Part shown: piece by piece, positions 30,571 through 31,488 of the stretch | Position numbering within the stretch: position 1 is the first letter of the stretch | Layout: the number at the start of each line of letters is the position of its first letter | Origin: Cupriavidus metallidurans CH34 | Lineage (GTDB): Bacteria > Pseudomonadota > Gammaproteobacteria > Burkholderiales > Burkholderiaceae | NCBI RefSeq assembly: GCF_000196015.1 | Contig: NC_007973.1 | Location: 1,736,001 to 1,800,000, forward strand | Length of the DNA stretch: 64,000 bases | Direction: 5' to 3' | Position numbers and translations under genes: made by a program | The notes under the pieces: model-generated | What the model was told of the DNA's origin: nothing | The model's database searches: none | The model's input: only the letters and a program-made list of their open reading frames with translations

Positions 30571-30628
30571 AATCGGATCGGCCATTAAGGTCGGAAACGT
30601 CGGAAAGGTTGGGTTGCTCCGACTGATC

Positions 30629-30946
30629 CTAGAAGAGCGTTGCCTGCGGCCGGACTTCGTGTCCGGCCGTTTTCATTTGGGCAGCCGGCTGGTTCAGGAT
30701 CTGGCGAATCTGCGCCAGATAGCGCTCGCCCACGGCGCGATGGGTCTTGCGCGCTTCCTCGGCGAAGCTCCGGCGCGATGGCGCCCGGATATTGAGCAGC
30801 CGGCAGATGGTGGAAAGATAAGGCTTCTTCCCATCCGCTGCGACACGCCTGGCGGCAGACATCAGGGCGGCATCGCCAATCCGGCCTCGCAGCCACACCA
30901 GTACCTGTCGGTCGTATTCGTTTTGCACGCGGATCAGGTGTTCCAT
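30629..30946 (-). CDS. Small SOS-box-controlled protein of unknown function
   Basis: This basic protein of about 105 aa starts at ATG 30946, which has GGAGG seven bases upstream. I do not recognise the family. It is rich in Arg and Ala, has no membrane segment, and has a helical middle with the phrase KPYLSTICRLLNIRAPSRRSF that could be a DNA- or protein-binding helix pair. Two LexA-type boxes lie directly upstream (30972-31006), so it is expected to be induced by DNA damage. Roles in division arrest or DNA repair are guesses from regulation alone. The last 20 or so codons contain, on the opposite strand, the terminator of the ThDP gene. Confidence 0.8.
   Translation of the reverse strand: MEHLIRVQNEYDRQVLVWLRGRIGDAALMSAARRVAADGKKPYLSTICRLLNIRAPSRRSFAEEARKTHRAVGERYLAQIRQILNQPAAQMKTAGHEVRPQATLF
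30648..30672 (+). terminator. Rho-independent terminator of the ThDP gene, inside the opposing small gene
   Basis: GGCCGGAC (30648-30655) and GTCCGGCC (30661-30668) pair perfectly around TTCGT, with GTTTTC after the stem. It is 78 bp past the ThDP stop and lies within the C-terminal codons of the minus-strand SOS gene. Confidence 0.7.
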
Positions 30947-30971
30947 CTGATACCTCCGAGAATTCCTAGGA

Positions 30972-30987
30972 CTGTTCATCCATACAG
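30972..30987 (-). promoter_or_regulatory. LexA (SOS) box 1
   Basis: CTGT-N8-ACAG, read on either strand. It begins 26 bases upstream of the ATG at 30946. It fits the CTGT-N8-ACAG consensus known for LexA in gamma- and betaproteobacteria. Its centre is less AT-rich than that of box 2. Confidence 0.7.
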
Positions 30988-30990
30988 TTA

Positions 30991-31006
30991 CTGTAAATAT
31001 ATACAG
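30991..31006 (-). promoter_or_regulatory. LexA (SOS) box 2, near-consensus
   Basis: On the minus strand this reads CTGTATATATTTACAG, with an AT-alternating centre almost identical to the best E. coli SOS boxes; the flanking bases (CA before, TA after) extend the match. It is separated from box 1 by only three bases. Confidence 0.85.
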
Positions 31007-31488
31007 TGATCAGGAATTTTCAAGGGGACAGTATAGGAATCCTGGCCGTGGGGTGGCCGGTATCAGCCTTTGCCCCCTTTACGTCCCGAAATAGGGGAGA
31101 TAGCGGCAGATGGTGCCCATAACACCCTGCAGTCGGGCGCCATGAAGATGGGGGGCAAGTGGTGTCGCTCGGTAATGGCGGATTTCACGATTGAACTTAT
31201 GAATTTCATTCCTGAAACCATCGCATCAAACCGCTGCGATTGATATTCCCTGACAAATCAACGAGATACGCGCACCGCCACCTTGTGGCCCGCTTTTTGC
31301 GTTTTCGACCCCTGCAGACGTACACGTGAATGTGCGCGCAAGTTGATCGTCAATCCCGCTCACCGTGCAGTGCCGACGGGCTGATCTCCGACTTCTCCGG
31401 CATGGGCAGGACCTGCCCACCGCCGTCTTCTGACTTCTGGCCATGGCGTGTCCCCACGCGTGGCCTGTTCGCTTAGGTTGCATGCCCT
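31007..31488. other. Intergenic region before pyc, no gene seen
   Basis: 482 bp between the SOS boxes and the pyruvate carboxylase start. Short open frames here lack ribosome sites and resemble nothing I know. It should contain the pyc promoter, but I could not pick a confident -35/-10 pair or a riboswitch-like structure. Confidence 0.6.

Follow-up and report, generated by a model that had tools for sequence, protein, structure and literature searches.

The CppA-like gene of Cupriavidus metallidurans CH34 is very probably under LexA control, as judged from two tandem boxes that overlap its predicted promoter. Its product ends in a beta-clamp-type QxxLF motif, and this C-terminal, clade-restricted motif is the new element described here. 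We propose a model in which a stand-alone, LexA-repressed SOS gene would encode a product acting at the replication clamp; taken as a whole, the model has slightly less than an even chance of being right.

Two predicted LexA boxes at the promoter of a small gene

Two CTGT-N8-ACAG boxes separated by 3 bp are present at 30972-30987 and 30991-31006 of the window (the whole 64-kb stretch of DNA that was analysed), which confirms the arrangement reported in the original prediction. Both are predicted LexA boxes on the minus strand. The first one, CTGTATGGATGAACAG, is proximal to the gene and lies at the start of the inferred transcript, while the second, CTGTATATATTTACAG, is the distal box and contains the predicted -10 hexamer. 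In its minus-strand reading, the distal box shares 15 of 16 positions with CTGTATATATATACAG, the ideal SOS box, and one of the two copies had indeed been described as close to ideal. Downstream of the boxes, a minus-strand gene (30629-30946; ATG at 30946, stop codon at 30629-30631) encodes a 105-aa CppA-like protein, and the ribosome-binding site GGAGG (30957-30953, minus strand) precedes its ATG by 6 nt. The protein is basic (pI 11.1), with 19 lysine and arginine residues against 9 aspartate and glutamate residues; the earlier description of a basic 105-aa product with a strong ribosome site was thus accurate. When codons 1-32 were compared with those of 29 homologs, third positions accounted for 395 of the 520 differences, and the codon changes were 338 synonymous against 94 non-synonymous. 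The gene thus appears to be genuine and conserved among soil bacteria. An ORF on the plus strand (30614-31009) was dismissed because conservation, promoter and boxes all belong to the minus-strand gene. Read by eye, the neighbours are a convergent TPP-enzyme-like gene downstream and a divergent carboxylase-like gene upstream.

Between 30540 and 31480, a single sigma-70-like promoter is predicted; it lies on the minus strand and reads TTGAAA-16-TATATT. Its -35 hexamer, TTGAAA, corresponds to 31018-31023 and its -10 hexamer, TATATT, to 30996-31001, within the distal box; a local-type LexA box hence overlaps the predicted promoter of the CppA-like gene. Of 81 upstream regions compared, 75 have a CTTG element whose spacing to the distal box is nearly fixed, the TTG being located 17 or 18 bases 5′ of the box in 72 of them and 16 bases in 3; at L093, L096 and L114 a single box is recognisable, and the -35 distance leans there on a poor distal box. 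That the distal box is near-invariant fits a double duty as -10 element and operator. The proximal box, as inferred from the promoter position, would span the first transcribed bases. Because the -10 hexamer is comprised in the distal box and the proximal box would cover the transcript start, two LexA repressors would lock the promoter, as at lexA.

Box specificity and conservation across genera

CTGT-N8-ACAG occurs four times in the window, against 0.58 expected, and none of 100 shuffles gave such a high number; the remaining two matches are GC-rich. Over the whole host genome (6,913,352 bp in four contigs), the single pattern occurs at 55 places against 43 for the reversed-pattern control, a modest excess, and a single box by itself is therefore little proof. 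We then considered tandem pairs, defined as two perfect boxes with a gap of 1-8 bp and again controlled with the reversed pattern. The 6.9-Mb host genome contains two, located at lexA and at the CppA-like gene, and the control gave none; the many box pairs unrelated to genes that would have spoken against the original prediction are not there. The tandem pattern is present in 59 of 60 Cupriavidus genomes, at exactly two places in 55 of them, and the control pattern at one place across all 60. The outliers have three places (G019 and G033), one (G047 and G058) or none (G045). Among the genomes with places listed, one pair is located at the CppA-like gene in 36 of 37; genome G016 carries the gene without a perfect pair at it.

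A PWM built from eight other sites of the host genome was used to score 43 distinct sites, drawn from 50 of the 55 genome places. Eighteen of the 43 score at least 14 and all others less than 8; the two boxes at the CppA-like gene score 26.2 and 18.4. The same pattern is found 5′ of genes read by eye as encoding LexA (a tandem pair), RecA, UvrA, ImuA, DinB and a UvrD-like helicase, a DnaE2-type polymerase gene coming after the ImuA-like gene. Both the shared box at lexA, recA, uvrA, imuA and dinB and the conservation across genera argue strongly for the originally proposed LexA/SOS control.

Other sites of the host genome deserve mention. A strong box, CTGTATAAATATACAG, lies 10 bp 5′ of a frame that resembles by eye a radical-SAM protein (L013, G000:C3:821596), perhaps splB as given in PMC3323433. 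The 16-mer CTGTTTTCGCATACAG, on either strand, occurs four times (G000:C3:3430339, C3:3615572, C4:150961 and C4:475511), perhaps within a repeated element. At L056 (G000:C4:1758960-1760980), the box CTGTATATTTGTACAG at 1007-1022 is followed 54 bp later by an open frame; its hypothetical product, starting with MSQDDTAFLEDD, has no Pfam match, and the gene is a second candidate SOS gene without an assigned role.

Searches of the 60 Cupriavidus genomes detected the CppA-like gene in 58, with one match in 57 of these; G058, which is 97% complete, gave no match. Family-wide, it is present in 198 of 398 Burkholderiaceae genomes and in 9 of 25 genera. An order-wide draw of 300 genomes gave six with a match, two of them outside Burkholderiaceae. 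Within its own genus, two perfect boxes are present at each of the 30 loci taken, which were the best among 59 places with a match. The named loci, the best 80 of 107, come from Cupriavidus, Paraburkholderia, Caballeronia, Burkholderia, Trinickia, one Ralstonia sp. and one 'Rhodoferax' MAG; two perfect boxes lie within 110 nt at 56 of them, a single one at 17 and none at 7, and the 639,686 bases of these loci contain only two more. Five of the seven loci without a perfect box have a pair with one mismatch per box, and L108 and L131 have neither. According to PMC3323433, a gene may be ascribed to a LexA regulon when a box lies 5′ of its homologs in three or more species; the CppA-like gene, which has one or more perfect boxes at 73 of the 80 named loci, would be ascribed to it. 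Eight genera beyond Cupriavidus, represented by 20 genomes, provided a set of 21 loci that may overlap with the named ones; it includes 15 with a perfect box, 5 with a one-mismatch box and one with none, this last being a second copy, of the plasmid CppA type. Start codons in this set were picked by script, which leaves the distance to the box uncertain at L174 and L177.

Apart from the CppA-like gene, each gene family of the neighbourhood recurs at 21 of the 80 loci at most, some of these families being antisense ORFs, and no conserved neighbour common to different clades was found at these loci. The boxes therefore travel with the CppA-like gene. Directly downstream of a Paraburkholderia/Caballeronia paralogue, a DUF2471-type gene is found in 8 of 14 loci (L107, L111, L116, L121, L122, L123, L130 and L135), the other six being without a match to the search string; the assignment comes from one scored protein, that of L121 (E 5.4e-7). 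Depending on the start chosen, this gene overlaps the paralogue by 1 bp or begins 28-38 bp after it, and may be co-induced.

A PF25860 protein with a clade-specific QxxLF tail

The protein had been taken to belong to no known family, a view that its relatives overturn. All 106 relatives found carry the precomputed Pfam label PF25860 in the protein database, and so do the 120 hits listed out of 525 in another search. These include plasmid-type proteins named 'cryptic plasmid protein A', found in Chromobacterium, Ralstonia, Neisseria and a Cupriavidus MAG. Membership of PF25860 means here homology to labelled proteins, the Pfam copy used being one without the PF25860 model. The sensitive profile search suggested along with the original prediction gave by itself no convincing match, whether to a toxin, a division inhibitor or a defence system, when run against Pfam, NCBIfam, PHROGs and PADLOC; it was the label on the relatives that provided a family. 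In PHROGs, the protein scored 0.0083 against a short family of unknown function. Its relative P0081 matched PHROG 2440, annotated as 'transcriptional regulator', below threshold (E 0.0072) and gave a value of 0.023 in PADLOC. A match to UreF (E 0.034) was under its cut-off, as were those of two other relatives to HTH_18 (P0103, E 0.19) and MarR_2 (L184, E 0.12), and no helix-turn-helix family was found at cut-off. The core has no match to polymerase or repair families in these searches.

AlphaFold2 predicts a confident helical core for the protein (pLDDT 83.8) and for its relative P0033 (pLDDT 89.9), the order in the P0033 model being long helix, short helix, long helix. When the sequence was compared with solved structures, a single match was obtained, with E 1.4. 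Foldseek searches of two models against the PDB and of one against BFVD gave none with E below 0.001, a result that does not by itself prove a new fold; a second look at folds with VIA, at 2 and 6 chains only, gave no match. Conservation in the core concerns N9, D12, R13, W18 and K-P-Y-x-S, the near-invariant polar residues being N9, D12, R13 and S44/45. A4 comprises the proteins that passed a filter of 76% identity and 150 aa (56 of 289), with P0028 then removed.

On plasmids, members of the family have rep, par, mob or toxin-antitoxin genes nearby. When a CppA-type query was used in tblastn, 179 plasmid records were obtained, 143 of them from Neisseria. According to PMC3032703, plasmid pJD1 is present in about 96% of gonococcal strains, and its CppA gene is the last one in a transcript with mobilisation genes. 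No phage relatives of the protein were found. The frame at L202:597-1244 combines a T5orf172 domain (E 4.6e-4) with a distantly related CppA core (E 3.4e-6), which hints at a DNA-related role. As to the boxes, no perfect one is present in 250 nt at the CppA genes of the Deefgea, Chromobacterium, Hydrogenophilus and N. lactamica plasmids, nor in the stretches fetched from two further families of the order, one with a CppA-type gene and one with the distant fusion to T5orf172; for relatives outside Burkholderiaceae, a box was found in 0 of 6 examined. Three plasmid copies of a longer type from Burkholderiaceae have one or two boxes, and L187, the single CppA-type copy looked at within this family, has none. 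The simplest story would be that LexA control was gained, or retained, in the Burkholderiaceae branch.

The protein ends in QATLF (30632-30646, minus strand), which resembles a beta-clamp-binding motif. The consensus was taken from PMC12309361, where the bacterial motif is given as commonly QL[S/D]LF and generally QxxLF, with positions 1, 4 and 5 weighing most. Throughout one Cupriavidus clade, the protein ends, or nearly ends, in QxxLF (QATLF here; QGSLF, QASLF, QTSLF etc. elsewhere), and P0009 and P0011 keep the motif though their tails extend past it. We built a tree of 67 rows from the first 88 residues, the tail being thus excluded and P0019 and P0028, which have chimeric tails, omitted. 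QxxLF is present in 21 of 21 rows of that clade, which is weakly supported (81/55, and seen in 80% of bootstrap trees), and in 0 of the 46 other rows. A single gain is thus sufficient, and as the motif is missing from 46 of the 67 rows, clamp binding cannot be ancestral to the family. The Q, L and F codons show synonymous drift in 17 loci, and the linkers 5′ of the motif vary in length and letters. In the structural model, the tail carrying the pentapeptide is exposed and flexible (pLDDT about 50). QxxLF is a short motif with three fixed residues, and we rate clamp binding through this tail as evenly balanced between true and false.

A terminator-like hairpin is located on the plus strand at 30646-30670, opposite to and inside the 3′ coding end of the CppA-like gene, this stretch being thus used twice, as plus-strand hairpin and as minus-strand protein tail. 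The residues TAGHEVRP, just ahead of QATLF, overlap the hairpin and the motif itself lies beside it; because of this overlap, the opposite-strand hairpin may be a further reason why GHEARP is conserved.

Possible roles and comparison with known systems

In the model that we favour, two LexA repressors would hold the promoter shut until DNA damage, when RecA-driven LexA cleavage would release a burst of the 12-kDa basic helical CppA (PF25860) protein. In the Cupriavidus clade, the protein would dock with its flexible QxxLF tail on the beta clamp of replication, and the conserved core would act on DNA or on the replisome, whether by slowing the fork, by competing with Pol III or by helping with polymerase exchange. 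The clamp-type motif at the C-terminus points toward replication rather than toward a toxin or a division inhibitor, and we put forward action at the level of replication as a tentative proposal, somewhat likelier to fail than to hold. Rather unlikely in its full extent is the further reading that a plasmid-type CppA was captured by the Burkholderiaceae SOS network, came under double LexA control and received a clade-specific clamp tail, thus becoming a damage-induced clamp modulator. If true, such a modulator would be of a new kind. Besides those of lexA, the perfect tandem LexA boxes of these large-genome bacteria are usually found at a gene to which the literature consulted gives no function. 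The role of this gene would test whether SOS responses include lineage-specific replication brakes, and would also offer a way into the function of the cryptic plasmid protein A family.

An alternative, itself unlikely, is that the gene encodes a LexA-controlled small helical DNA-binding or regulatory protein whose target after damage would be DNA or transcription; the clamp tail would then be a late addition. The strong basicity, the near-invariant polar residues, the plasmid relatives close to rep, par or mobilisation genes, the distant fusion to T5orf172 and the sub-threshold matches of P0081, P0103 and L184 are consistent with it; however, no helix-turn-helix family reached the cut-off and the helix-helix-helix core found no match among solved structures. 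It is improbable that a domesticated plasmid-maintenance gene tunes here the SOS response or a plasmid-host conflict. PsiB is an example of such tuning, and the likeness would be one of action and not of kinship. The company of rep, par, mob or toxin-antitoxin genes on plasmids and the boxes seen in the Burkholderiaceae branch only would suit this idea, but in Cupriavidus the gene is a near-universal, single-copy chromosomal one. The toxin or division inhibitor of the original prediction found no support. Tandem boxes and tight repression would suit a product that needs to be kept silent, yet the same box layout is common to lexA itself, no toxin-antitoxin-type or other partner gene adjoins the CppA-like gene and no long hydrophobic stretch is present in its product (both judged by eye), and none of Pfam, NCBIfam, PHROGs and PADLOC returned a convincing match to a toxin or inhibitor family; an inhibitor of growth or division comparable to SulA, SidA or YneA, or a toxin comparable to TisB, is accordingly quite improbable. 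Finally, that the boxes are due to chance or serve another regulator is barely credible, since single sites do exceed the control only modestly but perfect pairs in the host genome are confined to lexA and the CppA-like gene and kept across genera, and both boxes score among SOS-type sites.

A LexA-regulated hypothetical gene, hypA, was predicted in a 2012 study (Sanchez-Alberola et al.; PMC3323433) that took in R. metallidurans, R. eutropha and C. taiwanensis; as described there, hypA has no homologs outside beta-Proteobacteria with multiple chromosomes. It resembles the CppA-like gene by description, and both this gene and that of L056 are candidates for hypA. The literature consulted, with subscription papers mostly outside it and sources available in part, gives no function to the CppA-like gene.

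With respect to known systems, CppA of the Neisseria plasmid pJD1 has in common with the present protein the core N-x-x-D-R ... W-L ... P-Y-x-S. Unlike the latter, the CppA genes of the Deefgea, Chromobacterium, Hydrogenophilus and N. lactamica plasmids lack the QxxLF tail. In QxxLF clamp binders, Q, L and F are fixed within the pentapeptide, and the same holds for the present tail, where binding is predicted from the sequence; Pol III alpha (DnaE1) of the host genome likewise contains a QxxLF, namely QVSLF. SocB of Caulobacter is a small protein thought to stop replication via the clamp, and by description the CppA-like protein, small as well, would be alike.
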